This document shows positions 332-27,623 of a DNA stretch of 48,549 nt, piece after piece (the stretch's first letter is position 1; the number at the start of each line of letters is the position of its first letter). The stretch lies in the IMG/VR virus record IMGVR_UViG_3300020190_000090, positions 1 to 48,549 of that record, one strand, 5' to 3'. A program made the position numbers and the translations under genes. The notes under the pieces were generated by a model. The model ran no database searches, was not told the origin of the DNA, and saw only the letters and a list, made by a program, of their open reading frames with translations. The stretch is from a virus.

Positions 332-520
332 ATGAACACTGTTAATCAACTTCTGTCTCTGAAAGAAGAGTTTAAGCGTCAGGACTTTACATTCACGAAA
401 GAACAACAGGAACGATACAATGTTTTTCTGAATCGTCGGCGTGAAGAAGTGAAACAGTGGTACAAAGATGGTAAGGTTTGGATTGGTCCTAGCACTGCAG
501 GAAAGGCACTGGTCGAGTGA
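332..520 (+). CDS. small hypothetical protein
   Basis: A 62-residue, highly charged, probably helical protein (start MNTVNQLLSLKEEFKRQ). No domain recognised. The ATG at 332 follows the first junction element by about ten bases and has no strong Shine-Dalgarno sequence. The TGA stop lies inside the 33-bp direct repeat shared with the end of the next gene, and a hairpin follows at once. Confidence 0.6.
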   Translation: MNTVNQLLSLKEEFKRQDFTFTKEQQERYNVFLNRRREEVKQWYKDGKVWIGPSTAGKALVE

Positions 521-549
521 CACTTTAAGAACTGTCTACTACCCCTTGA
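517..549 (+). repeat. 33-bp direct repeat, left copy
   Basis: Thirty-three bases identical to 1623-1655, with core CACTTTAAGAACTGTC followed by TACTACCCCTTGA. The upstream gene's TGA stop is at repeat positions 2-4, exactly as in the right copy. Together the two copies bracket the ParB-like gene. Confidence 0.9.
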
Positions 550-575
550 TTTTAGTCAAGAGGTAGTGGTATCTT
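536..575 (+). terminator. probable transcription terminator hairpin
   Basis: ACTACCCCTTGA (538-549) pairs with TCAAGAGGTAGT (556-567) through 11 of 12 positions around a six-base loop. The 3' side is moderately T-rich without a perfect T run. It lies just after the stop of the 332-520 gene. Confidence 0.6.
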
Positions 576-597
576 AATTCATACTAAATTATTCAAA

Positions 598-1626
598 ATG
601 AACTCCACTCAGACAAACACTTTTATCTCTCAATATTGGGATGCTATTGCTTGTGATCCAAGTAAATGGTGTTATGTTCCAAATACTTATGATGTTGATG
701 GTGTAGAGTTGGTAGGATCTCCTCAAATGAAGTTGTGGAGTGATCTTAATAACTGGAAAAATCCTGGGAGGTCAAATGGAGCAAATGTTTCTAAAATTGA
801 AGAACTAAAAGAAAATATCAAAGAGGAGGGTATCAATCTGGATTCTCCCTTTGTTTATTATGATATTGATACAAATGACCGAATAAATGGTGAACACAGG
901 CACCTTGCATGCAACCATTTGGGTATTAGTGGATGGATGATGCAAGGTGTTAGATTTTATAGTGAAGCATCTAAAATCAGGTTTGCCCTTATTTCAAATA
1001 AAAAAAAGAAAGATGTTTACAACCCAATTTCAATTGATGATGTTGAAGCTACTGTAAGGGATCTTATTCAGAGGGGTGATATTTCTACAGATCAAGAGAT
1101 AAAAAATGAGATTAAAATCCTTGGAAAGGGATCTATATCTCAAAAAGTGCTGGATAGATTGGCTAATCGAATTCTTTCCGAAAGAATTATGTCTGGTCAA
1201 ATTAAAGGTACGAATCGACTTTATGAGTGGAATGAAGACAGGTTTGAAATCTTTGTCAAAAATTCTAATGATGAGTGGGTACAAAATTACTTTCTGAATA
1301 AATCAGAAATTACCATTTATATCAATATGGCTTACTGGTCATCTCGTATTGGTGCTTTATTTGAAAAAGCTTTTGAAGCTGCTAATTGTGATTCCCCATT
1401 GCATCTAGTTTTTTCTGTTAAGTTGAAAAAAGGTGAAAGCCTAGAGACAACTCGAAAAAAAGTTTTTGATGATTATTTGAAAAAATTTGAGAAGAAATCT
1501 TGTTTTATTTTTGGAGTTAATCACGAAAGGTGTAAGACCTATCTGCCATGGAACCATCCAGATTGTGAGCACAGATTTCTTCCACAATCAAGTGAAGAAG
1601 ACGAAAAAGAGACTATTAAATTGTGA
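598..1626 (+). CDS. ParB-like nuclease/partition-fold protein
   Basis: A 342-residue protein. Residues about 66-102 resemble the ParB/sulfiredoxin-type N-terminal domain: a KIEELKENIKEEGI helix, a beta strand with SPFVYY, then RINGEHRHLACNHLGI, matching the family's 'GExR..A...lG' signature. That domain can bind or hydrolyse nucleotides or DNA. The rest (charged helices, a C-terminal Cys/His-rich stretch ending in acidic residues) is not recognised. Codon use differs from the helicase downstream: A/T-ending codons and mixed AGG/CGA/AGA arginines against almost uniform CGT. The gene together with one terminator lies exactly between two perfect 33-bp direct repeats, suggesting acquisition as a cassette. 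Its activity is unknown; a decoy or regulator is also possible. Confidence 0.7.
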   Translation: MNSTQTNTFISQYWDAIACDPSKWCYVPNTYDVDGVELVGSPQMKLWSDLNNWKNPGRSNGANVSKIEELKENIKEEGINLDSPFVYYDIDTNDRINGEHRHLACNHLGISGWMMQGVRFYSEASKIRFALISNKKKKDVYNPISIDDVEATVRDLIQRGDISTDQEIKNEIKILGKGSISQKVLDRLANRILSERIMSGQIKGTNRLYEWNEDRFEIFVKNSNDEWVQNYFLNKSEITIYINMAYWSSRIGALFEKAFEAANCDSPLHLVFSVKLKKGESLETTRKKVFDDYLKKFEKKSCFIFGVNHERCKTYLPWNHPDCEHRFLPQSSEEDEKETIKL

Positions 1627-1655
1627 CACTTTAAGAACTGTCTACTACCCCTTGA
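1623..1655 (+). repeat. 33-bp direct repeat, right copy
   Basis: Identical to 517-549. It begins three bases before the end of the ParB-like gene, so that gene's TGA stop is inside the repeat at the same place as in the left copy. Sequence diverges immediately after the repeat. Confidence 0.9.
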
Positions 1656-1683
1656 CTTTTGACGGTCAAGGGGTTATTATTAT
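1648..1683 (+). terminator. transcription terminator hairpin
   Basis: CCCCTTGAC (1648-1656) pairs perfectly with GTCAAGGGG (1665-1673) around an eight-base loop, followed by TTATTATTATT. It ends the ParB-like gene and separates it from the helicase. Confidence 0.75.
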
Positions 1684-1701: not shown

Positions 1702-2877
1702 ATGGTAACTCTTCGCCCTCATCAACAACGTGCACTAGATGCACTCTCTAAGTATCTGAAAGGTCAGTGTATTTTTCCGACTGGAGGTGGAAAAACACTG
1801 GTTGCAATCATGGATGCAGTTCGTGAGTTTCAGAAAGAAACTCCACAGACCATTGTTGTGGTTGCTCCTCGTATTCTCCTCGCAGAACAACTGTGTTCTG
1901 AGTTTCTGGAACATATCACCAATGCAGAAGTGATGCACGTTCACAGTGGTGAAACTCATCACTTCAACACCACTAAGGTATCTGAAATCCAGAAGTGGGT
2001 TGATGATAACTCTGACAATCACAAACTGATCTTCACAACTTACAACTCTCTTCATCGTATTCAAGAGAGTGAAATTGATGTGGATACGATTTACTTTGAT
2101 GAAGCACACAACTCCGTAAAACGTAACTTCTTCGCTCCTACAGAGTATTTCTCTTCCAACGCTAATCGTTCCTTCTTCTTTACTGCAACTCGTAAGACTT
2201 CGGTTACAATCAACAAACCAGGAATGAACGATCGTGATGTCTATGGTGACATCATTTGTCGTGTTTCTGCACCTGAACTGGTGAGTGGTGGTTACATCAT
2301 TGCACCTAAGATCAAGGCAAAAACCTTTGACATTCAGGACACTCGTATGATCGGTCCTGAGGTTGATTGTGGTAACGTTCTCGAAACGATTGATGATACC
2401 GACACCAAGAAGATTCTTGTTTGTGTGAAGAGTGCAAAGCAACTCATCAATCTCATGAGTCACACTGACTTCGCATCTCAGTTGACACAACGTGGTTATT
2501 CTTACCTTTACATCACCTCAAAGACTGGTGCGATTGTTGATGGTAAGAAAGTGAACCGTGAGGTATTCTTTGATACTCTCAACGCATGGGGTAAGGATCC
2601 TGAGAAGAAGTTTGTTGTTCTTCATCGTTCTATCCTGTCTGAGGGTATCAACGTGAGTGAACTTGAGACTGTCATCTTCATGAGGAACATGGACACCATT
2701 GAGATGGTTCAAACTATCGGTCGTGTTCTCCGTCTTGGTGGTACTCACAAGACCTACGGTTTGTGTGTGGTTCCTGTGTATTCTAAGGTCGGTATTGCTA
2801 CTGAACGTGCATTGCAAAACGTGGTGGATACTGTGTTTGAGAAAGGTGAACTTCTGGATTCTGTGGTACGCAAATGA
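1702..2877 (+). CDS. SF2 DEAD/DEAH-type helicase
   Basis: A 391-residue ATPase/helicase of superfamily 2. Visible motifs: Q-like N-terminus LRPHQQRALDAL, Walker A PTGGGKT at residues 26-32, motif Ia VVAPRILLAEQL, Walker B FDEAH with D133-H136, motif III TATR near residue 161, and motif VI QTIGRVLR near residue 337. These imply ATP-driven movement on or unwinding of nucleic acid, acting in the infected cell's cytoplasm. It is shorter than T4 UvsW (about 500 residues) and looks like the compact cyanophage helicase; a DNA replication/recombination role is inferred. ATG 1702 was chosen over the in-frame TTG at 1699. The stop overlaps the next ATG (ATGA). Confidence 0.9.
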   Translation: MVTLRPHQQRALDALSKYLKGQCIFPTGGGKTLVAIMDAVREFQKETPQTIVVVAPRILLAEQLCSEFLEHITNAEVMHVHSGETHHFNTTKVSEIQKWVDDNSDNHKLIFTTYNSLHRIQESEIDVDTIYFDEAHNSVKRNFFAPTEYFSSNANRSFFFTATRKTSVTINKPGMNDRDVYGDIICRVSAPELVSGGYIIAPKIKAKTFDIQDTRMIGPEVDCGNVLETIDDTDTKKILVCVKSAKQLINLMSHTDFASQLTQRGYSYLYITSKTGAIVDGKKVNREVFFDTLNAWGKDPEKKFVVLHRSILSEGINVSELETVIFMRNMDTIEMVQTIGRVLRLGGTHKTYGLCVVPVYSKVGIATERALQNVVDTVFEKGELLDSVVRK

Positions 2878-3059
2878 GTTACACTAATTCTCACATTCTT
2901 GAACCAAAACCTGGTCCGATTGGATTTGTTGTCAAGGATTACGCAGCGATTCCTTATGGTAATCAGTTCATGATTCTGCACAATGGTCAACAGATCAAAG
3001 TGTGTAGAACATCACAATCTGCTCGTAATTTCATCCAGAAAGAGATGAAATCTAAATAA
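2874..3059 (+). CDS. small conserved hypothetical protein
   Basis: A 61-residue protein translated in an ATGA overlap with the helicase, so it is probably made from the same message. The sequence (KPGPIGFVVKDYAAIPYGNQF, then a basic C-terminus) suggests a small beta-rich domain. I recall comparable ORFs next to helicases in cyanophages but no function. Its stop codon is part of a late promoter core. Confidence 0.7.
   Translation: MSYTNSHILEPKPGPIGFVVKDYAAIPYGNQFMILHNGQQIKVCRTSQSARNFIQKEMKSK
3052..3058 (+). promoter_or_regulatory. T4-type late promoter core CTAAATA
   Basis: CTAAATA ends 24 bases before the ATG at 3083, the spacing expected for a gp55-dependent late promoter with a short leader. 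It overlaps the upstream stop codon. Confidence 0.65.
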
Positions 3060-3082
3060 TAAGACAGAGAAACGAGTAAGAA

Positions 3083-3826
3083 ATGAGAACTTTTAGAGAC
3101 TTCATGGTTAGAATGAATGAAAGTTTAGAAGATCGCCGTGATGAGATTGATTCTAAGAGAAAAGAAGCAATAGAGAAACAAAAAGAGAAGATTGAAGATC
3201 GTGAAGAAAGAAATCAATTGAAGAAAGAAATTAAGAGTGAGATTAAGCAAGAATTGAGTTCCGAAGCATATGATGCTGAGGTCATGGGACGTTCTCAGAT
3301 TCGTAGAACTGGTGAAGGTGGACGTGTTGGCGCTGAGCGTAAGAAAACCACACCAGAACGTCGTAGAATGAAAGCAGTTGGTGGTGGAAAGACTGAACCA
3401 GTAGAGTATAAGGATCGTGTGGATATTGGTTCTCAAAGGCAGAGAAGTGAGAGAGAACAAACACCTGAGAAGGAAAGAGGTAGTGCTGCACTCTCACCTA
3501 AAGAACAACAGAGAAAGGCATACTTAGAGAGAAAGGCAAGAGAAGGTAAAGGTCCTGCAACTTCCAGAGAGAAGGAGAAGGAAGCATCTAAACTCTTGAG
3601 TAAGAAGAAAGAGGAGAAACCTGTATCACCTGAGTATAAGCCAGCAAAGGCATCAGGTATGGCAAGAAGTGAAAGAATGTCACAACAACGTAAAGGTGAA
3701 GCGATGCTCAAAGATATCATGAAGGACCAAGAGTTCTCACGTTATGAGAAAGAAACTGGTCAAAAAGCTACTGGTAAAGCTAAGACCAAACTCTTGGGTA
3801 GAGTATCACAACGAATGGCAAACTGA
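3083..3826 (+). CDS. Lys/Glu/Arg-rich late protein, possible internal virion or scaffold component
   Basis: A 247-residue, very hydrophilic protein with long charged helices (about residues 14-58) and a central basic region with GRSQIRRTGEGGRVGAERKK and RRRMKAVGGGKTEPVEYKDR. The opening MRTFRDFM resembles other cyanophage late proteins, and I recall relatives in other cyanomyoviruses. Composition suggests a coiled-coil or disordered nucleic-acid or capsid-core partner, but there is no catalytic motif. A late promoter immediately upstream supports expression with virion genes although it sits in the accessory region. Function unproven. Confidence 0.75.
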   Translation: MRTFRDFMVRMNESLEDRRDEIDSKRKEAIEKQKEKIEDREERNQLKKEIKSEIKQELSSEAYDAEVMGRSQIRRTGEGGRVGAERKKTTPERRRMKAVGGGKTEPVEYKDRVDIGSQRQRSEREQTPEKERGSAALSPKEQQRKAYLERKAREGKGPATSREKEKEASKLLSKKKEEKPVSPEYKPAKASGMARSERMSQQRKGEAMLKDIMKDQEFSRYEKETGQKATGKAKTKLLGRVSQRMAN

Positions 3827-3828
3827 GG

Positions 3829-3868
3829 GAATTATTGTTAGTAACCTTGAAAGTGTCCCTATAGTATG
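3829..3868 (+). repeat. 39-bp junction element, copy 2
   Basis: GAATTATTGTTAGTAACCT, then TGAAAGTGTCC and CTATAGTATG. The final ATG is the start codon of the ligase-like gene at 3866. Confidence 0.85.
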
Positions 3869-4747
3869 AAGAACACTCACCTGGAACACGCAGAAGATCT
3901 CATCCTCACTGGTGATCTTTCTGTTCTTGATGCACTCTACAATCCGAATCACATCAGTGTGAAGATTGATGGTGCACCTGCAATTGTGTGGGGAACTCAT
4001 CCTGAGAATGGTAAGTTTTTTGTTTGCACCAAAGCAGCATTTAACAAACAAAAGATTCGTGTTTGTTACAATCAAGATGACATCTTCACTCACTTTGGAC
4101 ATCAACCAAATGTAGTTAAGATTCTCATCTATTGTCTGGACTTTCTGCCTCGCACTGAGGGAGTGTTTCAGGGTGATTGGATTGGTTTCGGTTCTGGTCT
4201 TGATAGGTTCACTCCGAATACTATCACCTACAAGTTCTCCGAACCTGTGATGGAGGATATTGTGATTGCTCCTCATACTTATTACACTGGAAACGGTCCT
4301 CTGTATGAAATGGAGGCACATTCTCTCACTGGTGAACTGATTGGATCTCAACATTGTCGTTTCGTTCAACCTTTCACTGACCGAGTTTGTGGTAACACTG
4401 TTGCACCTAAAGTGAATCGTAAGGGTATCACTTTCCTCTCTCCGAAAGAAGCAACGATCGCAAAACAACAGATCAATGCACTCATTCGTAACGGTCAAGA
4501 ACTCACCGATGCGGACCTATTTGGTATTCTTGGATGTATTCAACTCGTCAATTTGTATCAGATGGTGATTGAAATCAAAGAGGATCTGATGGAGTCGTTG
4601 ATTGTCTATGATTGTCCCAAAGCATACATCAGTGGTGAAGAAATCAATCAAGAAGGTTTCGTTCTGTCCTACAATGGTGGTATGATGAAACTTGTGGATC
4701 GTAAAGTGTTTTCCTTCGCTAACTTTACACAGGGTCGATTCCAGTGA
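3866..4747 (+). CDS. ligase/nucleotidyltransferase-superfamily-like protein
   Basis: A 293-residue protein with the ordered motifs of covalent nucleotidyltransferases (DNA/RNA ligases, capping enzymes). Motif I is KIDG with the candidate nucleotide-accepting lysine K33. A motif III-like GDWIGFG lies near residue 103. Motif IV is EGFVLSY from E263, and motif V is KLVDRK at K275-K280. I recall a cyanophage family, DUF6267, with this look. If active it would adenylylate itself and seal or modify nucleic acid; 293 residues fits a minimal ligase without an OB domain. The start ATG is the last triplet of a junction element. Catalytic function is inferred from motifs only. Confidence 0.7.
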   Translation: MKNTHLEHAEDLILTGDLSVLDALYNPNHISVKIDGAPAIVWGTHPENGKFFVCTKAAFNKQKIRVCYNQDDIFTHFGHQPNVVKILIYCLDFLPRTEGVFQGDWIGFGSGLDRFTPNTITYKFSEPVMEDIVIAPHTYYTGNGPLYEMEAHSLTGELIGSQHCRFVQPFTDRVCGNTVAPKVNRKGITFLSPKEATIAKQQINALIRNGQELTDADLFGILGCIQLVNLYQMVIEIKEDLMESLIVYDCPKAYISGEEINQEGFVLSYNGGMMKLVDRKVFSFANFTQGRFQ

Positions 4748-4785
4748 GTTAAAGTTAGTAACCTCTAAAGTGCCCCTATAGCATG
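4748..4785 (+). repeat. 39-bp junction element, copy 3
   Basis: GTTAAAGTTAGTAACCTC, then TAAAGTGCCC and CTATAGCATG. It begins directly after the preceding TGA and ends in the ATG of the next gene, so it is the whole intergenic space. Confidence 0.9.
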
Positions 4786-5241
4786 AACACCACAACTATG
4801 GAACTCCAAGCAAAACAAACTATCGCAAATAGTGTTCTCAAGAATACTTTTCTGTTGATTGAGGCACTAAGAGACAACTATCGTCAGTATTCTATTCGTG
4901 GACATCAACGAGCAATCGAAAATCTGAATTATACTTACGGAACCACAGATTCGGTTCAATCCCAGTATCATGAATCATGTATTACTGATCTCAAGAATGG
5001 TTGTTGTCCTATTGATTATCAGGTAGAGACTGGTAAAAAGTATCACAAAGTCATCTTTGTTGATGGTGGTGGTAATCGTTCTGTTCACTGTTTCATTGAT
5101 AAGAACACTGGTGAAGTGTATAAGTCTGCCACCTGGAAATCTCCTGCTAAAGGTGTTCGTTATGATCTGCGATTGATTAAAGATCGTGAATATCTGCTGG
5201 AAAATGCAGATTGGAGCGGAGGATATTTATATGTGAAATGA
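4783..5241 (+). CDS. conserved phage hypothetical protein
   Basis: A 152-residue protein. The N-terminal half is helical. The C-terminal half is a compact beta-rich block (KYHKVIFVDGGGNRSVHCF, then KNTGEVYKSATWKSPAKGVR) that I recall as a small stand-alone phage domain of unknown function. No catalytic motif is evident. Translation could start at ATG 4783 (inside the junction element) or ATG 4798; the first was chosen because other copies place the start there. Confidence 0.7.
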   Translation: MNTTTMELQAKQTIANSVLKNTFLLIEALRDNYRQYSIRGHQRAIENLNYTYGTTDSVQSQYHESCITDLKNGCCPIDYQVETGKKYHKVIFVDGGGNRSVHCFIDKNTGEVYKSATWKSPAKGVRYDLRLIKDREYLLENADWSGGYLYVK

Positions 5242-5251
5242 TGTGACAGGC

Positions 5252-5290
5252 AATTAAAGTTAGTAACCTCGAAAGTGTCCTAGTAGTATG
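5252..5290 (+). repeat. 39-bp junction element, copy 4
   Basis: AATTAAAGTTAGTAACCTC, then GAAAGTGTCC and TAGTAGTATG; the ATG starts the next gene at 5288. Confidence 0.9.
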
Positions 5291-5488
5291 ATCACCGACC
5301 AAATGACTTACACTATCACTAAGCACATCAAAATCGAACACGAAGAGGATGATTGGAGTTTTGACTTCACCGCTGATGAGTATGGGACTGTGAGTGTAGA
5401 AGATGGTAATGGTCCTGGATATCAAACCATTCATATTCCCAAAGATTGTATTCAACATTTTATTGACGTTCTGGAGCAATACAAATGA
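5288..5488 (+). CDS. small acidic hypothetical protein
   Basis: A 66-residue acidic protein with a probable antiparallel beta segment (WSFDFTADEYGTVSVEDG) and a C-terminal helix. It starts at the ATG of a junction element and overlaps the next gene by ATGA, so the two form a coupled pair. Function unknown. Confidence 0.65.
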   Translation: MITDQMTYTITKHIKIEHEEDDWSFDFTADEYGTVSVEDGNGPGYQTIHIPKDCIQHFIDVLEQYK

Positions 5489-15527: not shown

Positions 15528-18500
15528 ATGACAGGAACAAGAATCAAAATTAGTTCGGTTATCCAAAATCAACTTCCAGAATTCGTCAAGGAAGAGTTTC
15601 CTTTAGTTGTCGAATTCTTGAATCAATATTATTTGTCTTTGGAATCTGAAGGACTTCCATACAACTTAATTCAAAATATAGACAAATATGTTAAGGTAGA
15701 TAATCTTACTAATTTAACAGATTCTACAGTATTAACTTCTAATGTTTCTTATTTTGATTCTACAATTAATGTGCAATCAACTTCAGGATTTCCAGACTCT
15801 TATGGAATCATTCTGATTGATTCGGAAATTATAACATATACCTCAAAAACTAATACTTCTTTCACTGGATGTGTAAGAGGATTTAGTGGGATCACATCTT
15901 TAGAAAATCCTTTAAATTCTGATGAATTAGTTTTCTCAACCTCATCTTCAGAACAGCATACTTCAGGATCTAAGGTTAATAATCTTAGTATTCTTTTCCT
16001 GCAACAATTTTTTAAAAAGGTAAAATCTCAAATATCTCCAGGATTTGAGGATAGAGATTTTTATAGTGGTTTAAATGAATCTATTTTTGTAAAACAATCT
16101 AAAGATTTTTATTCCTCAAAGGGAACCACAGAGTCTTTTAAAATTTTGTTTAAAGCACTCTATGGGGAAAATGTAGAAGTAATTCGCCCACAAGATTTTT
16201 TAATTCAACCATCGGATGCAGAGTATAGAATAACAAAAGATTTGGTTGTAGAAAAACTTGAGGGAGATATTGAGGATTTAGTTAATAGAACAATCTATCA
16301 GGATCAAAATGATTTTCTGGATAGAGCAAGTGGAACTGTAACTAAAGTAGAAAAAATAATTCGAGATTCGAAGGAGTATTATACTTTAAGTTTAGATTAT
16401 GGTTATCAGAGAGATATTGATGTTGATGGAACTATCTTTGGAGAGTTCACTATTCATCCAAGATCAAAGGTAATTACCTCGATTGTAGATTTAGATCCTA
16501 GTATTTCTGGTTTTACAACGAGTTCTACATCAATTGATGTGGACTCTACTGCAGGATTTCCAAACTCAGGAAATCTTATTGTAGACCTTCCTAATAACAC
16601 ATCTCTAACTATTTCGTATGAAGATAAAACTTTAACCCAATTTTTAGGTTGCTCTGGTATAACTCAAGAGATAAATTCAGGTACAGAAATAAGATCTGAT
16701 GCTTATGCTTATGGTCAGGGTGAATCGGGGCAAATAAAGTTTTTAGTTACTGGAGTTTTATCGGATCTTAAACTGGAGAATAGTCAATATCAAAATATTA
16801 ACTATCCAGTAAAAATAAAAACTCTTGGAGAGGATTCGAAAGATTATAAAGCAAATAATTGGTTCTTTAACATTGCTGTTGAATATGACTTACAATCACA
16901 TTCATTAATAGACTCATCTTCTGCTCCAACTTATAGCTTAGTTTTTTATGATGATCACTCCTTTGTGATTGGAGATAGAGTAGTAATAAAGTCGTCCATT
17001 GGAACTCAAACAGATGCGGTTGTAGTTGCATATAATAACACTAAGTCAATTTCAATCCGAGGAAACATAAGTTTTAGCTCTAGTTTCTCATATAGAATAC
17101 AAAAAATTCTTTCAAGAGTTAATTCTAAAAATTATCCAGAATTATCAAAGTTTACATCTAATGTTCAAAATGTTTATATTGATTCTGATAATTCTTTGTT
17201 TGTTACTGCACCATCTTTACCAACATATCTTGATCAAGAGTTAGATATAAGAGATAAATCAAAAACTTTTTCTGGTTCTTTTAGTGGTGAAGAGCTAACT
17301 ATTGGAAACCACTCATTTTATACAGGAGATGCTGTATATTACAGATCAAGTGGACAAGAAAATACTTTGGGTATTTCTGATGGATATTACTTCATCAAAA
17401 AAATTAATGATACTACGATAAAGTTATCAAAAAGCAGACCAAATATATCAAATAATAAATTTGTTACTTTTGATGGATTTGCAAATAACGATAAAATAGA
17501 ACTTGCAAATTTTGTAGATGAGGTTACTCTAGAATCTAAAAAAATAGAACCTCAGAAAATTATTAGAAAGTTATCTAATCTAATTGTCAATGGAGATAAA
17601 GAAGTAACAGAACCTGGATCTACAGGTGTATTGGTAAATGGTGTTGAAATTTTAAATTACAAATCTCCAGATTCTATTTTTTACGGACCAATAGAAAAAA
17701 TTAATGTAATTTCTTCTGGTGACAATTATGATGTAATCAATCCTCCAGTTTTAGAAATTACTGATGAAGTTGGAACAGGAGTCACCGCATACTGTGCTGT
17801 AACCGGTAGTTTACGTAAAATTAATATTATTGATGGTGGTTTTGATTACTTAAATGATCCCAAAATAATTGTATCTGGTGGTGGTGGATCGGAAGCTTCC
17901 GCTAGAGTTAATTTAATCAGTTTTGATCATGAGGTTTATTTTAACTCAGAGTCTTCTTCATCTTTAGTAGATTTATCATCCAATACTATAACATTCCCAG
18001 AATACCACAAATTCAGAGATAATGAACTGGTAATTTATGATCCAGAAGGACAAACTTCTGTCGGAGGTCTATCGACCAATTCTCAATATTTTGTATCCGT
18101 TCAAAATGGATATACAATTAAACTTCATAAGAATTTGGATGATTCTGTTTCGGGAATTAATACAATTTCTTTAACATCATTTGGTATAGGAAATCATAAA
18201 TTCCAATCTACAAATAAAAAGAAAAAAATTGGATCAATCTTAATACCTAATGGTGGAAATGGTTATTCAAATAAAAAAAGAGTATCAAAGTCAACAGGAA
18301 TAAACACTGCATCAAATACAATAGAAATTTTTGATCATGGATATTCTGATGGTGATATATTAGTATATTCTTTTACAGAAAATCCCATAGTTGGACTTGC
18401 AACTACTTCGACATACTATGTTTCAGTTGTTGATGAAAATAAATTTAAATTATCAAATGTAGGTGTAGGAACTCAAGAAAAAGATTTCTTCAAAAAGACT

Positions 18501-21500
18501 AATCAGTTCATAAATTTCGAATCAGTAGGAAGTGGACTCCATATTTTCAATTATGAACCGATTACTGTTAGAGCATCTGGTGTAATTGGAGTTTCAACGT
18601 TATCTGACCAAGATTTTAATGCTGTTCTTCAACCTATCTTTAGGGGAGAAATAGATTCTGTTTTTGTTCAGGATGGTGGATCTTCTTATGGATCTGAGGA
18701 AATTTTAAACTATGTAAGACAACCAAACTTTATTCTGAGATCAGGTTCAGGAGCTCAACTGACCCCAGTAATTAATAATGGAAAAATTGAAAATGTAATA
18801 GTTAACTATTCTGGCAGTTATTATAACTCTCCTCCAGATTTAGTCATAAATGGTCCTGGTTTTGGAGCTGTTCTTACACCAATACTTTCTAATGGAACAA
18901 TTGCTTCTGTAGTAATCGTATCCAGTGGTTCAGGATACGTTGAAGGAAAAACAACTATTGATGTAATACCATCAGGATCATCAGCAAATCTTAGTGCTCA
19001 AATTAAGAGTTGGAATGTCAATCTTGTTGAGAGATTTATACAATCAAATCAAATTACTGAAGATGATGGAATTGCAACTGTTGGACTTCATAAGTTTGGT
19101 TTACAGTATTCTCATTTATATGCTCCAAGAAAGTTCAGAACTTCAGTTCTTGGAACTAGATTTGATAATGGTGAAACAATTTATGAACCAGATTTAACTT
19201 TACTTAATGGAAGAGAGACTGATTCAAGATCACACTCTCCAATTATTGGGTGGGCATATGACGGAAATCCAATTTATGGGCCATATGGATACACTTCAAT
19301 AAGTGGTGGAAGAGTTAGACAGATGATATCTGGATATCAAATCTTACCCCAACAAAATCGACCAAATTCTACAATTTATCCTTTGGGATTTTTTGTAGAA
19401 GATTACACCTTTATCAATGGAGGGGATCTTGATGAAAATAATGGCAGATTCTGTGTAACTCCAGAGTATCCAAATGGGACATATGCATATTTCTCAACAG
19501 TTTCAGAACTTGTTGAGACAAGTGGATCATTCAAAAATTATAAGAAACCAGTATTCCCATATTTTATAGGAAATACTTATAAATCAAAACCAATTGATTA
19601 TAATTTCTCAACAAATTCTAATCAAATAGACTTCGATATTAATAAAACTGGTTGGTTGAGAAATACCTCCCCATATAATTTGATGAATTCTAATTCTGGT
19701 TATGCATATATTACAAATCCAAATGATATTCGTAATCAATATTCGATAGCAAAATCAATATCTTCTGGACAAATAACTTCTGTTGGAATTTTGACTGGTG
19801 GAGAAAACTATCAAGTAGGAGATTCTATTGAATTTTCTGCAAGATCTTTAGATTCTATTCCACCAAAAGCTTTCGTATCTTTTGTTGAAGGAAAATCGGT
19901 AACTTCTATCTCAGCGACAACATCTATAGTAACAAATGTTGAATTTTATAAATTTAGAGATGATCAAAAATATACAGCAATATCAACATCTCCACATTAT
20001 TTCAATAATTTAGATTTTGTCAATTTTAATGCAAATCAAGAGTACAATAACTATTCTCAAGTTAACATTGCAACAAATGTACTTAGATTAACATCTGGTG
20101 TTGGTTCTACAACAAGCACTGGTTCTGTAACTTACTTTAATGTTTCTGGTAATTTATCGGATACTGCAATACAAGAAAATGATATCTATAGAATATCAAA
20201 TGAATTAGTTAAGGTTTTAAATGTTGATGTAGTATCTTCTAGAATTAGAGTTTTAAGAAATACAAATGAGTTTGTTGGTGTAACTTCTTATTCTGCTGGA
20301 GAAGTCCTAACGGAAGTTCCCAGAAGAATGTCACTGAACTTTAATATCATCAATGACTATAATTTAAATTCTAGAAATAGGCAACAGTATTTTGATCCGC
20401 AAAATACTGTTGGACTTGGAACTACTTCTGGTGTAGGTATAACATCTACTATTGTGTTTTCAAATCCAGGAGTAGGTATAACACAGGTCACTATACCCAC
20501 TAGATCACTATACATTCCAAACCATAATTTAGAAAATGGTGATGAATTAGTTTATTCATCAAATGGTGGATCATCAATATCAATATCAACTGATGGAATT
20601 TCTTCTTTCCAATTAAGTGACAATTCAATTCTTTATGCCACAAAAATATCCAATGATATAATTGGTTTATCAACTTTTAGAGTCGGTTTAAGTTCAATAG
20701 GTTCTTATATTGGGTTAGGAACTACTTCAGCTTCTTTATTATACTTCACTGGGGTTGGTTTAGGAAATACTCATAGTCTTGAGACCAATTATCCTAATAT
20801 ACTTGTTGGTGAAATTTCAAAAAATATAGTTACTGTATCAACAGCATCATCTCATGGATTATTCTTGAACAATAGTGTTATTTTAGATATTACTTCTGGA
20901 TTAACAACATCTCTCAACGTAAAATATAATGACTATAGTAGAAGGACTATTATAAATGAAAGATCATTTGGTTCTTCAGATGTTGATATTGTAAAAAATA
21001 CTATATCTATTGAAAATCATGGATTTACAACAGGACAAAAAGTTATTCATACGTCAACTGTTCCATGTGGTGGTCTAATTGATGAAAAAATATATTATGT
21101 TATAGTTGTAGACAGAAATACTATTCAATTATCAAATACTCAATATTATTCAACTAGAAAGGAAAGAGATGTTGTAAACATTACATCATCTTCCACTGGA
21201 AATATTTTGCCAATAAATCCACCAATTAAGTTGGTAAAGGGAGAGGGATTACAGATTCAGGTTTCAGATCCTTCATTGTCATTCATAAAGAACTCTATCT
21301 TATACTCTGCTTTTGACTTGAATTTCTACACTGATTCTGATTTTAAAAATAAATTTGATTTTTCCCAATCAGATTTTGTTGAAGTTGTTAGATCTGGAAA
21401 AGTGGGGATCGATACCACTGCTACCGTTACTTTAAGAACCACTAATACTACTCCCAATATCTTATATTATAAATTAGATCCAATCAATACCAATTTATCA

Positions 21501-24500
21501 CTTGATACTAAAAAAGAATCAATAGTCGATAAAGAAGTTATTGGATTTGGCCAGATTTCTATATTGGAAAGTGTTTATAGTGGTCAGAAAAAAGTTATTG
21601 GAATTTCTACAAATACTTTTAATTTCTTGTCAGAGAATACTCCAGAAGTATCTTCGTACAACTCTGAGAGTTCGGATATTTCATACATCACAAATTCAAA
21701 TAATGTTTATGGCCCAATAAATTCAATTAAAATAAAAAATTCTGGCAGAAATTTAAAGGAACTTCCATCAATATCAAAAATTCAAACTGGAATTGGAACC
21801 AAAGCCTTATTAGACTTAGAATCCAAAAATATTGGAAGTATCTTAAATTATCAAATTCAAGATATTGGATTTGAATATCCATCAGATTTGACAATTAGAC
21901 CAACAGCAAAAGCAACTGAAATATTAAAAATAAAGACACAATCATCATTCAATTCGATTGGAATTTCTTCTGTAGGGAAAGGATATTCACTTTCACCAAA
22001 TTTGATTGTCCTTGATGGACTGACAGGTAACATCGTAAATGATGTTGATCTCAGATATACTTTGGGAAGTACTAATGTTGAGATTCTAAAAAATACTAAA
22101 GGTATAAACAATGTTACTCCCACTATTATTCCAATCAACAATACGAACGGCGTTAGAATTAGTTCATTAGATTTTAACTCATCATCAAAAGAAGTTATTG
22201 TTACTTTAGGTTCTAGTTTTAGCAATGTATCAGATTTCCCATTTGAGATTGGAGATAAAGTTCTAATTGAGAATGTTAGTGTTGGAGTTGGATCTACAGG
22301 AACTGGATATAATTCAGAAAATTACAATTATGCCCTGTTCACATTGACTAACACCACTCCAAATATTGGAGGAATTGGAGCTACTGTTGCATATAGTCTG
22401 ACAGAGTATTTGAAAAATGGAGAAATTCCTGGAACTTTTAATAATGAAAATTCTTCTGCAAGAATTATACCACAAAAACATTTCCCAATTTTCAATATCG
22501 ATTTAGAAAAAAATGAGTTTTACGTTGGTGAAGAGGTATATTCCAATGAATCGTTAAGTGAAGGAAAGGTCATTGATTGGGATCCATCGTCAGAATATCT
22601 TAAGATATCAACATCCGACCAATTTACAGAAGGTCAAACGATTATCGGAAAATCTTCTTCATCGAGAGGAATGATTTCTTCTTTAATTGAAACAAAAGGA
22701 TCATATACTGTTTCATCATCTTCAATCGTTAAAAAGGGATGGGAGAAAGAAACTGGAATTCTTGATAATCAATTCCAAAGAATACATGACAATGATTATT
22801 ATCAATACTTCTCATATTCGTTAAAATCTCAAGTACCATTTGATACTTGGGGAGATGCTGTAGGAAATCTAAATCATACCGCAGGATTTAAAAAATTCAG
22901 TGATTTGATCGTAGAATCTTCCGTTACTACTTCAGGAATAACCACATCTCAAGATTCTGGCGATTTTACTGGAATTGCTGATCTTTCAAGATCAATTGAT
23001 TTAAATTGTGTTTATGATTTTGATTTAGTTAAGGAAAATAATTTCTCTATTGATGGAAAAATTAAATCCAACGAAATTGTATTTAATTCCAGAATTATCC
23101 AAGATTACATAGAATCTATTGGAAATAGAGTTTTACTTATTGATGATGTTAGTGATCAATTTAATAGCAATCCAAGACCTACTCAGTTTAGCATAGTTGA
23201 TACTTTTGGTTTAGATTCAAGATCTATAAAATTCTTGACTTTTGTTAGAGACAGAAGATTCAGTGAGCAAAAGCAAGTCTCTTTGGTCACTTTAGTGCAT
23301 GATGGATCAAATGGATATATTAATCAATATGGTGCAGTTGATACATATGGAAATATGGGATTCTTTGATTTCTCTATTGCTGGTGATGAAGGAAATCTTT
23401 TATTCTATCCGACTAGATCATTAATCAATGATTATAATATAAGTTGTGTTTCTTTTGATATTAGAGATACCATATCATCAATAGGATCAACTGATCTTGG
23501 AAGCACTGTTTTTGTTGGATCTTCAACAACAACTATTTCATCAGGAAGTTCATCTCCAATAACTGTTGTTGGTATTGCTTCTACATATAGATCTTCGAAG
23601 GTTATTGTTCAGATTGGTGCTACAGATTCGTCATATTATGAATTTGATGAAATAACATTAATCCATGATGGTACTGATATTATCTTACAAGAATATGGTC
23701 AATTGGCCAGTGGAAGTTTGGTTACATATTCAGAATCAGGAATCGGAACTTATAATGCATATTATTCTGGTTCTAATATTAATATTGATTTGATTCCAAA
23801 TAATACTACTACAGTTTCTTATAATATAAATTCTATCAGAGTTTCTATTGCAAATAGTTCTTCCACAAGTACTGGTGTAGAATCTTTTAATAATTCAGTT
23901 TTGCAGTCAAATTATGTTGCAATATCATCCACTCCATCTCCTGGAATTACGACGATTGCTACATATTCTTCTGCATATTCTGGATCATACTTTATAGTAA
24001 GTGTAGAAGATCTAACCAACAATCAATATCAAGTTTCGGAAGTTGTTGTTGCACATGATGATGTTGATCCACATATCACCGAGTTTGGTATTATTAATAC
24101 AAATTCATCTATAGGTCTTATTGATATAAATTTTGTACCTTCTACTGGAAGTGTAGACTTAACATTTACACCCAACCCAGATATAGATGTTGAGGTTAGA
24201 GTATATCAAAATTCTATAGGTCTAGTTAACGACGCAATACCATATCGTGAAATTGATTTTACAAATGCATTTATTAGAACAGGATATGGAGATTATGAAG
24301 CATCTCAAAGTAATGTTAGAAGATCTTTCCAGTTAACATATAACCAAAATCCAATTTTTGAAAGGTATTTTGATGGAAGTAGTTCTTCTATAGTTGATAT
24401 TGACAATGATGTTATCATCATACCAGAACATTTCTTTGTAACTGGTGAAAAGGTTGCATATACAATTGCTGGAGCTGGAAGCACTCAAGCAATTGGAATT

Positions 24501-27500
24501 GCTACGACTACTATTTCTGGTGTTGGAGTTACTGATAAACTTCCAAGTACTCTTTATATCGTAAAGAGCAATGAACTTGGAGTTCAAGTTGCGGCTTCTG
24601 CTTCAGATGCTTTAAAACTTCCACCAAATATTTTAGATATTACAAGTGTTGGAATTGGAACTTCTCACAGGTTTGTTTCCACCAATCAAAATTCTAGAGT
24701 ATTAATTGGAATAGACAACCTAATTCAATCCCCTATTGTTTCAACTGCAATAACAACTACTCTTGCAGAAGAAGTAAGAATCACTGATGAGAGATTAACA
24801 TTCTCTGGAATTACATCATTCTTTGGAGGAGACTTGATTAAGATTGATGATGAAATTATGAGAATAAATTCTGTTGGATTGGGATCAACTAATGTCATCT
24901 TAGTCCAAAGATTCTGGATGGGAACAGGTATTGCATCACATGCTCAAAATTCACTAATAACAAAAGTTAGAGGTGATTATAATATTATTGATAATACTAT
25001 TAATTTTGTAGAAGCTCCTTATGGATTAACTCCAATAGGATCTACATCAAATCCACCAGATAGCAGAGATTTTGTGGGTATAGAGACTCATTCTACTTTC
25101 CATGGAAGATCATTCATAAGATCTGGTTTATCCAATGATGTTAATGATTCATATGCTTTCAATTATGTGTTTGATGATATTTCTAGAGATTTTAATGGAA
25201 TTACAACTTCATTTTCCATCAAATCTGAAGGTTCTAATATATCCGGAATATCTACAAGTAATGCTATTGTATTGATTAATGACATATTCCAAGGTCCAGA
25301 AAGATTTGGTAGTGTTGATATTTTGGGAGATTATTATCTTACAGAATCTGCGGGTGAAACTCAAATTTCATTTACAGGAACTGCATCTTCTGCTTCATAT
25401 GATATTAACACAGCAATTATTCCTCGTGGAGGAATAATTGTATCGGTTGCATCTACTGGAGGATTTGGTTATCAACCATTAGTAGCAGCAGGTGGAACTG
25501 CTGTCATTTCTGGACTCGGAACAATTCAATCAATTAGTATAGGAAACAGTGGTTCTGGATATAGACCTGGAGTTCAAAGTGTAGTTAATGTTGGAGTAGC
25601 AACATCTAGTGTTGGAAATTATTCCATTGAGTTCATTGGAACTGCTTCAATTAGTGGAGGTCATATTGTTAGCGTAGCTATTACAAATCCAGGAGTTGGA
25701 TATACGTCAACAAATCCACCTATTGTTATATTTGATGATCCACTTTCATATTCAAACATTCCATTAATTTATACTTCATCTTCAAGTGGAGTTGGAACAG
25801 AGGCAATAGTTGATATTGTCGTTGGTCAGGGATCTAGTGTAATCTCATTCAATAGTAAAAATTCTGGATATGGATATGGTCAATCAGAAAAACTCACTGT
25901 TGCTATCGGTGGAACCACTGGAATTCCAACAAATACTTCATTGCCATTCGAACAATTTGAAGTTACTATCGATAGAACATTTAGTGATGAATTTTCTGGT
26001 TGGTCTATTGGAGATCTTCAAGTCATTGATCCATTCGATTCACTATTTGATGGAGAAAGAACAACTTTCCCAATTAGAATAAATGGCAATCAAACAACAA
26101 TGAGGTCCAAAAAAGGATCTAATATTGAAGTTAAATCCAATTTATTAATCTTTATTAATGACATATTACAGGTTCCAGATATTTCTTACATATTTGAAGG
26201 TGGAAGTATAATTACTTTTGTCGAACCACCTAAAGTTGGAGATAAATCCAAAGTACTATTCTACAAAGGAACTGGAAATGTAGATACTGTCAATGTTGAT
26301 ATTTTAGAGACTATCAAGGAAGGAGACACTGTTAAGATTAATAGTGATTTTGTTGGATTAAATCAAGATTCTAGATTGGTAACTGATATCATCTCTACTG
26401 ATATTTTAGAGACAAATACTTATTCTGGACCAGGAATTACTGAAGATGAAACTTTATTAAGACCTTTGATCTGGTGTAGACAGACTGAAGATAAGATTAT
26501 AAACGGACAAGAAGTTGGAAAAGATAGAATTCTTTACGAACCATTGATTACTCCTACATCAAACTTAATTGAAAATGTAAGCATCTCATCTACACAAATT
26601 TGGGTAGAGAGTGTAAAAACTTTCTTTGATAGTTATGATGAGTACTTGCATGATGGAACTTCCGAGATTCCACAAAATAAAATTACAATCATTTCTCAAA
26701 ACGATTTAGTTGCCGCATCCGCTACTGCTGTGGTTTCTGCCGCAGGAACAATATCATCAATTATTATTTCTAATGGTGGTATAGGTTACACTTCAACTAA
26801 TCCACCAGAAATAGTAATCGAAAATCCCGTTGGTCTTGGATCAACACAAAGAGCTTCAGTATTATCTGTTGTTTCTTCTGCAGGCACTGTATCTAATATT
26901 GTAGTTTCTTCTCCCGGAACTGGATATACTACATCAAATCCACCAGTAGTATTAATAGAACCACCTGCAGTTACAAAAGAAACAATCGATTCAGTATCTT
27001 ATATTGGTGATTTTGGCACTATTGTTGGATATGGTATATCCACAATTTCTGGTTCCGATAAAAACATATTTGATCTTTATATACCACAAGATTCGTTCTT
27101 GAGAGATACTGATGTTGTAGGAACTGCAATTACAGTAAGTCAGATCCAAGTTGGTGACTTCTTTGTTGTTCAAAATTCAAATGTTGGAGCAGCATCTACA
27201 AACTTCTTCACATATAGAACTAATGGATCAATTATTGGACTTTCTACTCAATATGTCGATGGAATTTATCAAGTAGATACTATCGAAACTCATTACAAAA
27301 ATGTTGTTGGAGTTGGAACAACAGTTATCAAGAGAGTATTTGCAGTAGTAGAACCTACAACTGGAATAAGCACTATTGGAATGGGATCATCAACAATATT
27401 CTTTGATTCCACGTATTATACCTGGGATTATCTCGGAATTACTACTTATTCTGGAGGATCTATTACTACTTCCAACTATATTGGAGAATTTAGTTGGGGA

Positions 27501-27623
27501 AGAATTTATGATCTTTCCAGAAATGAACCGAAAGAATTTAAATCTTATGGTTTTAGTGGAATTAATACTTCTGCAAGTGTAATTCGTTTCAACCCACTTA
27601 AGTATAAAAACTATGTCAACTAA
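15528..27623 (+). CDS. giant baseplate/tail structural protein (gp7 position) with YHYH domain
   Basis: A 4031-residue protein, about a quarter of the window. Residues 1-235 form a conserved opening (QLPEFVKEEFPLVVEFLNQY, then DSTINVQSTSGFPDSYGIIL). Residues about 1235-1325 form a YHYH domain (GWAYDGNPIYGPYGY at 1241-1255, LDENNGRFCVTPEYPNG near 1300). Glycine-rich GGSGY-type repeats occur at about 722-796, 1041-1161, 3331-3404 and 3735-3812. Three HDG-type beta domains lie near 2573-2648, 2688-2775 and 2813-2900. Between genes 6 and 8 this is the T4 gene 7 slot (T4 gp7 about 1030 residues), so a wedge-plus-fibre role is inferred. No stop or frame break was seen. Confidence 0.85.
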   Translation: MTGTRIKISSVIQNQLPEFVKEEFPLVVEFLNQYYLSLESEGLPYNLIQNIDKYVKVDNLTNLTDSTVLTSNVSYFDSTINVQSTSGFPDSYGIILIDSEIITYTSKTNTSFTGCVRGFSGITSLENPLNSDELVFSTSSSEQHTSGSKVNNLSILFLQQFFKKVKSQISPGFEDRDFYSGLNESIFVKQSKDFYSSKGTTESFKILFKALYGENVEVIRPQDFLIQPSDAEYRITKDLVVEKLEGDIEDLVNRTIYQDQNDFLDRASGTVTKVEKIIRDSKEYYTLSLDYGYQRDIDVDGTIFGEFTIHPRSKVITSIVDLDPSISGFTTSSTSIDVDSTAGFPNSGNLIVDLPNNTSLTISYEDKTLTQFLGCSGITQEINSGTEIRSDAYAYGQGESGQIKFLVTGVLSDLKLENSQYQNINYPVKIKTLGEDSKDYKANNWFFNIAVEYDLQSHSLIDSSSAPTYSLVFYDDHSFVIGDRVVIKSSIGTQTDAVVVAYNNTKSISIRGNISFSSSFSYRIQKILSRVNSKNYPELSKFTSNVQNVYIDSDNSLFVTAPSLPTYLDQELDIRDKSKTFSGSFSGEELTIGNHSFYTGDAVYYRSSGQENTLGISDGYYFIKKINDTTIKLSKSRPNISNNKFVTFDGFANNDKIELANFVDEVTLESKKIEPQKIIRKLSNLIVNGDKEVTEPGSTGVLVNGVEILNYKSPDSIFYGPIEKINVISSGDNYDVINPPVLEITDEVGTGVTAYCAVTGSLRKINIIDGGFDYLNDPKIIVSGGGGSEASARVNLISFDHEVYFNSESSSSLVDLSSNTITFPEYHKFRDNELVIYDPEGQTSVGGLSTNSQYFVSVQNGYTIKLHKNLDDSVSGINTISLTSFGIGNHKFQSTNKKKKIGSILIPNGGNGYSNKKRVSKSTGINTASNTIEIFDHGYSDGDILVYSFTENPIVGLATTSTYYVSVVDENKFKLSNVGVGTQEKDFFKKTNQFINFESVGSGLHIFNYEPITVRASGVIGVSTLSDQDFNAVLQPIFRGEIDSVFVQDGGSSYGSEEILNYVRQPNFILRSGSGAQLTPVINNGKIENVIVNYSGSYYNSPPDLVINGPGFGAVLTPILSNGTIASVVIVSSGSGYVEGKTTIDVIPSGSSANLSAQIKSWNVNLVERFIQSNQITEDDGIATVGLHKFGLQYSHLYAPRKFRTSVLGTRFDNGETIYEPDLTLLNGRETDSRSHSPIIGWAYDGNPIYGPYGYTSISGGRVRQMISGYQILPQQNRPNSTIYPLGFFVEDYTFINGGDLDENNGRFCVTPEYPNGTYAYFSTVSELVETSGSFKNYKKPVFPYFIGNTYKSKPIDYNFSTNSNQIDFDINKTGWLRNTSPYNLMNSNSGYAYITNPNDIRNQYSIAKSISSGQITSVGILTGGENYQVGDSIEFSARSLDSIPPKAFVSFVEGKSVTSISATTSIVTNVEFYKFRDDQKYTAISTSPHYFNNLDFVNFNANQEYNNYSQVNIATNVLRLTSGVGSTTSTGSVTYFNVSGNLSDTAIQENDIYRISNELVKVLNVDVVSSRIRVLRNTNEFVGVTSYSAGEVLTEVPRRMSLNFNIINDYNLNSRNRQQYFDPQNTVGLGTTSGVGITSTIVFSNPGVGITQVTIPTRSLYIPNHNLENGDELVYSSNGGSSISISTDGISSFQLSDNSILYATKISNDIIGLSTFRVGLSSIGSYIGLGTTSASLLYFTGVGLGNTHSLETNYPNILVGEISKNIVTVSTASSHGLFLNNSVILDITSGLTTSLNVKYNDYSRRTIINERSFGSSDVDIVKNTISIENHGFTTGQKVIHTSTVPCGGLIDEKIYYVIVVDRNTIQLSNTQYYSTRKERDVVNITSSSTGNILPINPPIKLVKGEGLQIQVSDPSLSFIKNSILYSAFDLNFYTDSDFKNKFDFSQSDFVEVVRSGKVGIDTTATVTLRTTNTTPNILYYKLDPINTNLSLDTKKESIVDKEVIGFGQISILESVYSGQKKVIGISTNTFNFLSENTPEVSSYNSESSDISYITNSNNVYGPINSIKIKNSGRNLKELPSISKIQTGIGTKALLDLESKNIGSILNYQIQDIGFEYPSDLTIRPTAKATEILKIKTQSSFNSIGISSVGKGYSLSPNLIVLDGLTGNIVNDVDLRYTLGSTNVEILKNTKGINNVTPTIIPINNTNGVRISSLDFNSSSKEVIVTLGSSFSNVSDFPFEIGDKVLIENVSVGVGSTGTGYNSENYNYALFTLTNTTPNIGGIGATVAYSLTEYLKNGEIPGTFNNENSSARIIPQKHFPIFNIDLEKNEFYVGEEVYSNESLSEGKVIDWDPSSEYLKISTSDQFTEGQTIIGKSSSSRGMISSLIETKGSYTVSSSSIVKKGWEKETGILDNQFQRIHDNDYYQYFSYSLKSQVPFDTWGDAVGNLNHTAGFKKFSDLIVESSVTTSGITTSQDSGDFTGIADLSRSIDLNCVYDFDLVKENNFSIDGKIKSNEIVFNSRIIQDYIESIGNRVLLIDDVSDQFNSNPRPTQFSIVDTFGLDSRSIKFLTFVRDRRFSEQKQVSLVTLVHDGSNGYINQYGAVDTYGNMGFFDFSIAGDEGNLLFYPTRSLINDYNISCVSFDIRDTISSIGSTDLGSTVFVGSSTTTISSGSSSPITVVGIASTYRSSKVIVQIGATDSSYYEFDEITLIHDGTDIILQEYGQLASGSLVTYSESGIGTYNAYYSGSNINIDLIPNNTTTVSYNINSIRVSIANSSSTSTGVESFNNSVLQSNYVAISSTPSPGITTIATYSSAYSGSYFIVSVEDLTNNQYQVSEVVVAHDDVDPHITEFGIINTNSSIGLIDINFVPSTGSVDLTFTPNPDIDVEVRVYQNSIGLVNDAIPYREIDFTNAFIRTGYGDYEASQSNVRRSFQLTYNQNPIFERYFDGSSSSIVDIDNDVIIIPEHFFVTGEKVAYTIAGAGSTQAIGIATTTISGVGVTDKLPSTLYIVKSNELGVQVAASASDALKLPPNILDITSVGIGTSHRFVSTNQNSRVLIGIDNLIQSPIVSTAITTTLAEEVRITDERLTFSGITSFFGGDLIKIDDEIMRINSVGLGSTNVILVQRFWMGTGIASHAQNSLITKVRGDYNIIDNTINFVEAPYGLTPIGSTSNPPDSRDFVGIETHSTFHGRSFIRSGLSNDVNDSYAFNYVFDDISRDFNGITTSFSIKSEGSNISGISTSNAIVLINDIFQGPERFGSVDILGDYYLTESAGETQISFTGTASSASYDINTAIIPRGGIIVSVASTGGFGYQPLVAAGGTAVISGLGTIQSISIGNSGSGYRPGVQSVVNVGVATSSVGNYSIEFIGTASISGGHIVSVAITNPGVGYTSTNPPIVIFDDPLSYSNIPLIYTSSSSGVGTEAIVDIVVGQGSSVISFNSKNSGYGYGQSEKLTVAIGGTTGIPTNTSLPFEQFEVTIDRTFSDEFSGWSIGDLQVIDPFDSLFDGERTTFPIRINGNQTTMRSKKGSNIEVKSNLLIFINDILQVPDISYIFEGGSIITFVEPPKVGDKSKVLFYKGTGNVDTVNVDILETIKEGDTVKINSDFVGLNQDSRLVTDIISTDILETNTYSGPGITEDETLLRPLIWCRQTEDKIINGQEVGKDRILYEPLITPTSNLIENVSISSTQIWVESVKTFFDSYDEYLHDGTSEIPQNKITIISQNDLVAASATAVVSAAGTISSIIISNGGIGYTSTNPPEIVIENPVGLGSTQRASVLSVVSSAGTVSNIVVSSPGTGYTTSNPPVVLIEPPAVTKETIDSVSYIGDFGTIVGYGISTISGSDKNIFDLYIPQDSFLRDTDVVGTAITVSQIQVGDFFVVQNSNVGAASTNFFTYRTNGSIIGLSTQYVDGIYQVDTIETHYKNVVGVGTTVIKRVFAVVEPTTGISTIGMGSSTIFFDSTYYTWDYLGITTYSGGSITTSNYIGEFSWGRIYDLSRNEPKEFKSYGFSGINTSASVIRFNPLKYKNYVN

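Follow-up and report, generated by a model that had tools for sequence, protein, structure and literature searches.

A ParB-fold gene between two copies of a hairpin-promoter element beside uvsW in a T4-like cyanophage, and its probable gain and loss as a cassette

The locus upstream of uvsW

The stretch of DNA analysed here (the window) comprises the 48,549 bp of viral DNA of IMG/VR record IMGVR_UViG_3300020190_000090. Because it carries a gene for a uvsW-like DNA helicase, homologues of which occur in 419 phage records that are nearly all of Synechococcus and Prochlorococcus phages, we take the window to be a fragment of a T4-like cyanophage. Searching the locus by nucleotide sequence against phage isolates gave zero matches; the relatives designated below by L and a number are contigs from metagenomic assemblies. 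The features of the window are collected in Table 1. A gene for a ParB-like protein lies between a short gene encoding 62 amino acids and uvsW. Relatives of the 62-aa gene are found directly before uvsW in L005, L008, L010, L049-L052, L058, L069, L071 and L073-L077.

Table 1. Features of the uvsW locus and neighbouring region, in window coordinates.
Feature	Position	Strand	Remarks
62-aa upstream neighbour gene, phrog_3262	332..520	+	phrog_3262 E 6e-15; function unknown; stop codon inside start of repeat copy 1
Repeat copy 1	517..549	+	33 bp; left part of hairpin-promoter element
Copy 1 hairpin	536..569	+	14 pairs, one mismatch; weak TTGATT-18-TATCTT pair ahead of ParB-like gene
Gained/lost gene, 342 aa, probable ParB/sulfiredoxin-type fold	598..1626	+	Pfam, AlphaFold2, Foldseek
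Repeat copy 2	1623..1655	+	33 bp, perfect match to copy 1
Copy 2 hairpin, terminator-like stem-loop	1647..1674	+	11 pairs; fold and terminator scan
Sigma-70-type promoter (predicted), upstream of uvsW	1652..1680	+	TTGACT-17-TATTAT; 10/12 consensus; -35 and spacer inside hairpin
uvsW-like DNA helicase gene	1702..2877	+	downstream neighbour of ParB-like gene; phrog_16 E 1.8e-60
Second-family copies	290, 3840, 4757, 5262, 5891, 6363, 7384, 8062, 8639, 9758	+	in many related loci too
Second-family repeat, second presence/absence site	3829..3865	+	L003 +280 bp; L004/L005 about +1600 bp
Third presence/absence unit, 152-aa gene (4783-5241, DUF7717)	4745..5291	+	between two second-family copies

A perfect direct repeat brackets the ParB-like gene

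An earlier note made from the sequence had claimed that perfect 33-bp repeats bracket the ParB-like gene, and this is what we find. The two copies of GTGACACTTTAAGAACTGTCTACTACCCCTTGA are exact and spaced by 1106 bp, and the match can be extended to 37 bp at 97% identity. Each copy begins one base before a TGA stop codon, at 518-520 for the upstream ORF and at 1624-1626 for the ParB-like ORF, again as had been claimed. With up to three mismatches allowed the window contains only these two copies, where 0.00 are expected from shuffled sequences. The 26-mer core was found in only four of 2.9 million viral contigs searched, all at the uvsW locus. The possibility that the repeat is a generic terminator placed after many unrelated genes is rejected on this ground.

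The repeat is half of a hairpin-promoter composite

Folding, promoter scanning and comparison with relatives show that the repeat is the left half of a composite of a hairpin and a sigma-70-type promoter, lying upstream of uvsW. The shared 33 bp take in the stop codon, the element's upstream half, the left hairpin arm and most of the -35 box. In copy 2 the -35 box lies in the left arm and the spacer is formed by the loop and the right arm. A T-rich run (TATTATTATT) follows, and scanning calls both a terminator and a promoter at this position. The predicted folding energy is -18.6 kcal/mol (z -5.0), and among the hairpin-promoter composites found on scanning the window from end to end this element was the strongest by far and the sole strong one. 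The copy 1 hairpin has a folding energy of -18.1 kcal/mol (z -4.5); its right arm is unrelated to that of copy 2, no T-run follows it, and its -35/-10 pair, which lies under the scan threshold, was called by inspection. The repeat had been described as running into a terminator arm. Both copies do enter the hairpin, but it is the left arm alone that they have in common.

The element is conserved in relatives of the uvsW locus, with a -35 box TTGAYN, a spacing of exactly 17 nt and a -10 box such as TATTAT or TATTCT; this arrangement of -35, hairpin and -10 is present in L005, L006, L008, L010, L030, L034, L049, L050, L058, L069, L073 and L075. The hairpins fold at -16.6 to -22.8 kcal/mol, and the stem sequence varies on both sides while the pairing is kept. 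Chimeras made from the left and right halves of different elements fold less well on average (-13.2 kcal/mol), but 11 of the 56 equal or exceed the weakest native element in stability, so that the result is suggestive only. The element probably both ends and starts transcription.

The gene has a predicted ParB-type fold

The Pfam family ParB_N (PF02195) matches the product of the enclosed gene with E 0.14 and 12.7 bits, short of the curated cut-off of 26.3. An AlphaFold2 model calculated from 19 relatives has a pLDDT of 82; it replaced a model from 7 sequences that was too poor (pLDDT 56). Using this model in Foldseek, the best PDB hits are ParB (E 1.3e-4) and then Noc, KorB, PadC and sulfiredoxin, with TM-scores that are low to moderate, mostly 0.2-0.5. 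To judge from the model, the description ParB-like appears correct at the level of the fold. At the place of the nucleotide-binding motif (G-x-R-R or G-x-H-R) most members of the family have NGxHR while L086 and L088 have NSITR, and N97 and R101 are the only invariant positions in the motif region across the family. There are also invariant histidine residues in an NHPxxxH-like stretch. Searches for function in Pfam, PHROGs, PADLOC and the sequences of the PDB gave nothing significant, and neither the window protein nor the family matched HNH, GIY-YIG or LAGLIDADG domains in Pfam.

Members of the family occur at three or more loci in cyanophages. They lie upstream of uvsW (the window, L084, L098, L100, L118 and S-H9-1), between regA and hsp20/gp43 (L085-L089, L101, L106 and L110, where the sequences of the neighbours served to name them) and, in L097, after an SPFH-like gene. 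Outside the window lineage no exact repeats longer than 12 bp were found to flank the gene, and long repeats are confined to the window lineage.

The codon usage of the gene had been held to differ from that of its neighbours. The composition does differ, with GC 33.8% and GC3 26% compared with 43.1% and 40.7% for uvsW, but this is a weak sign of foreign origin. Because the GC content of the gene is close to the average for the whole window (34.8%), we reject the argument from codon use to a foreign source.

Occupied and empty alleles

The earlier note had predicted that a relative lacking the gene should carry a single repeat. L005 is such a relative. It lacks exactly the enclosed unit, has one repeat, and its flanks are contiguous, with identities to the window of 96.5% on the left and 96.9% on the right (right alignment 2.2 kb). 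The junction reads GGTCGAG-TGACACTTTAAGAACTGTCTACTACCCCTTGACTTTTGACGG. Since the left side corresponds to the flank of copy 1, while the sequence from the C that follows the repeat onward is the flank of copy 2, the crossover lies inside the repeat. The proposal that the terminator serves as the recombination site holds to the extent that the crossover is in the repeat, but the element is a composite of promoter and hairpin, and hence more than a terminator.

The occupied allele is found in L003, L007 and L004, contigs that come from three datasets other than that of the window. In L003 and L007 the allele is almost that of the window (99.95-99.96% identity). L004 is counted as occupied because the contig opens with the last 37 bases of the ParB-like gene, including the stop codon, and one repeat. 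L004 and L005 show 99.15% identity across 2122 bp covering uvsW and the next genes, and they share a 1670-bp insert at 99.88%; over the same 2122 bp the window is 97.55% identical to L004 and 96.70% to L005. Because an occupied and an empty contig are so alike beside the site, we conclude that the presence of the gene changed very recently. L005 is the one near-identical empty allele found. Among the fetched relatives with uvsW identities of 68-81% none has the ParB-like gene, and many, with uvsW at 68-76%, have the 62-aa gene, the element and uvsW in succession. The likely history is of an empty ancestor, gain of the gene and then local loss in L005; this direction would be the more parsimonious, since it needs a single event where the opposite would need two gains, in the window lineage and in L004.

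A second promoter-like repeat bounds neighbouring units

A second repeat family, with the consensus AGTAACCTCNAAAGTGTCC, is present in 10 copies in the window, compared with 0.04 expected. It is found about 35-45 bp before many genes and has a TATAGT-like box without a hairpin. Of 237 cores in 650 kb, 224 lie on the gene-sense strand, and the core is usually shortly 5' of a start codon. The 5' half is uniform within one phage and different between phage lineages. The isolate SynMITS9220M01 has ten copies and S-B05 has nine, for the most part in clusters. The family is probably a phage-specific promoter; in the literature examined the published cyanophage promoters are sigma-70-like (early) and NATAAATA (late).

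Within 4 kb there are two more units that some contigs have and others lack, and each of them is bounded by the second repeat family. At the site after the gene that ends at 3826 the window is empty, L003 carries a gene for 75 aa together with a terminator-like hairpin, and L004 and L005 have a pair of genes for a type II restriction enzyme-like protein and a methyltransferase. We note that the latter cassette, at 3422-4683 in L005 and present also in L004, encodes an N6/N4 DNA methyltransferase; the window and L003 are without it. The other unit, containing the gene with a DUF7717 product, is missing from L004 and L005.

Comparison of all the fetched loci gave 115 pairwise gene-sized indels, which fall into 27 sites by approximate clustering. 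At 14 of the 27 the indel ends in promoter-like direct repeats that are 20 bp or more in length. The uvsW element accounts for one of these sites and the second family for 13, of which two were assigned by inspection, being variants missed by the pattern. By comparison, 4.3% of positions are near such a promoter-like motif. Taken alone, the fraction does not prove that recombination occurs at the motif, because where genes each carry their own copy of a promoter any clean indel will look repeat-bounded.

Other genes occupy the position upstream of uvsW in some relatives. Compared with L015 (at 3675), L020 has a 1330-bp unit with a different gene at the same intergenic place (2583-3915), with 7 bp of homology at the junction. 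The inserted gene encodes 401 aa, with weak matches to GmrSD_N (Pfam) and NsnA (PADLOC), and the insert has a hairpin-promoter of its own, TTGACA-N16-TATAAT. L012 (2323-3324) and L011 (654-767) differ directly upstream of uvsW by a 333-aa gene of no family, gained or lost in a unit bounded by 37-bp copies of a promoter-like repeat.

Probable recombination between copies of the element

We think it probable, and hold the view with some confidence, that the 1106-bp unit is a single-gene cassette, and that it comes and goes when copies of the composite of hairpin and sigma-70 promoter undergo homologous recombination with one another. The unit would consist of one ParB-fold gene and one hairpin-promoter element, placed between the 62-aa gene and uvsW. 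Recombination inside the 33-bp repeat would delete the unit to leave one hybrid element, giving the L005 allele, and a circle or linear piece carrying the gene and one element could recombine with the resident element, giving an insertion with two copies left. Since the element opens at a stop codon and includes a promoter as well as a terminator-like hairpin, the reading frames and transcription signals of the neighbours should stay intact upon gain or loss. The exchange is presumably performed by enzymes of homologous recombination. The reading of the locus as a gain/loss cassette, made in the earlier note, is supported by the empty allele with its single repeat. Several points count against the account. 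The perfect 33-bp copies flank the gene in the window lineage only, so that either the repeats decay or the gene may travel by another route over longer distances. In L020 the homology at the insertion junction amounts to only 7 bp. L005 is the single near-identical empty allele, and the contigs are products of metagenomic assembly.

Alternatively the gene might be an old resident of the uvsW locus, with repeats that arose by local duplication and a deletion in L005 by replication slippage, and no modular exchange. That the gene also lies directly upstream of uvsW in L084, L098, L100, L118 and S-H9-1, and that the relationships of L004, L005 and the window favour loss in L005, would both fit this. 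But the fetched nearer relatives are without the gene, many of them having the 62-aa gene adjoining uvsW, and the gene is found at unrelated loci too. Moreover copy 1 is no simple duplicate, because the right half of its hairpin is unrelated to that of copy 2. Taken together we regard this explanation as improbable. Slightly less probable still is self-mobilisation of a homing type, in which the product would cut the empty uvsW intergenic region and repair would copy the gene in, with the repeat as a by-product; the occurrence of the family as a lone, free-standing gene at no fewer than three loci and the invariant histidines in the NHPxxxH-like stretch are consistent with it, but the fold matches ParB and sulfiredoxin proteins rather than any of the three nuclease domains sought in Pfam, neighbouring genes without such domains show the same kind of repeat-bounded gain and loss, and a 33-bp direct repeat of the promoter that belongs to the target is not a normal trace of homing.

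Preferring recombination between elements for the 1106-bp unit, we can offer a wider scheme only tentatively, and on balance incline to doubt it. T4-like cyanophages would be organised in single-gene cassettes, such that most accessory genes in the region beside uvsW come with a single copy of a promoter repeat that is lineage-specific and internally homogenised, recombination between copies would be the main route of gain and loss, and the uvsW intergenic region would be a hotspot for ParB/DUF262-type and restriction-like genes.

Relation to known elements

The promoter-early stem-loops (PeSLs) of T4-type phages are reportedly small intergenic composites of a sigma-70-like promoter and a stem-loop, and close relatives are said to differ by gene indels that end in the element. 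The stem-loop reportedly terminates transcription, the promoter reportedly starts it early in infection, and small DNA circles are said to arise when elements recombine. The present locus resembles these in several respects. The genome is T4-like, as judged from the uvsW-like helicase (phrog_16), copy 2 is a composite of sigma-70-like promoter and stem-loop (the promoter of copy 1 being weak), and the indel between L005 and the window ends in the element. There are also differences. PeSL copies are reportedly many and lie in hyperplastic regions, whereas here the 33-mer is present twice, with one strong composite, in a 48.5-kb fragment rather than a whole genome; the hosts here are cyanobacterial; the element opens at the stop codon of the upstream gene; and most of the repeat-bounded indels nearby use the second, hairpin-less promoter-like repeat. 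On the basis of this comparison we would call the element PeSL-like and the event PeSL-type. The cassette idea, supported by the empty site of L005, is then not new as such, matching PeSL-mediated modular shuffling in T4-type phages. Puxty et al. 2015 (PMC4503421) cite Arbiol et al. 2010 (doi 10.1093/gbe/evq006) and Comeau et al. 2014 (doi 10.1093/gbe/evu129) for the part of PeSLs in modular gene shuffling in T4-type phages, judge the mechanism unlikely for cyanophage S-PM2, and state that the way in which cyanophages acquire and lose their many accessory genes has been little observed. While the class of mechanism is already known, the cyanophage case and the second repeat are apparently new, the former because this paper, the sole cyanophage paper found that discusses PeSLs, deems them unlikely there.

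The analysis provides an exact pair of occupied and empty sites whose breakpoint falls within a promoter-hairpin, and a further 13 gene-indel sites that lie on the second promoter-like repeat. Should the account be correct, promoters double as recombination sites, so that a gene travels with its own expression signal, and the frequency of gain and loss should be measurable in existing metagenomes.

Phage morons are single genes with their own promoter and terminator that are inserted between genes adjacent in relatives. The unit described here resembles a moron in that a lone gene brings its own transcription signals and separates two genes which adjoin in relatives, but it is in a lytic T4-like phage, both of its boundaries are identical copies of a resident regulatory element, and the gene, judged against the phage overall, is not foreign in composition. 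The halovirus HF2 is a lytic tailed virus with repeated intergenic sequences that carry promoters, according to PMC8707807, and in this it resembles the second repeat family. It is, however, an archaeal virus, and the term search of PMC8707807 found no gain or loss of cassettes at its repeats.

Other observations

In L023 the gene directly upstream of uvsW (3305-3883) matches DruA of Druantia (Pfam E 3.8e-7), and defence-like genes may have a hotspot at the position upstream of uvsW. The ParB-fold gene upstream of uvsW in L100 (3001-3928) is split over two frames, possibly being a decaying copy or the result of a sequencing error. Elsewhere in the window there are two very long ORFs, at 15528-27623 and 30530-38359, that encode 4031 and 2609 aa, with GC3 of 16-17%, below that of the uvsW region.
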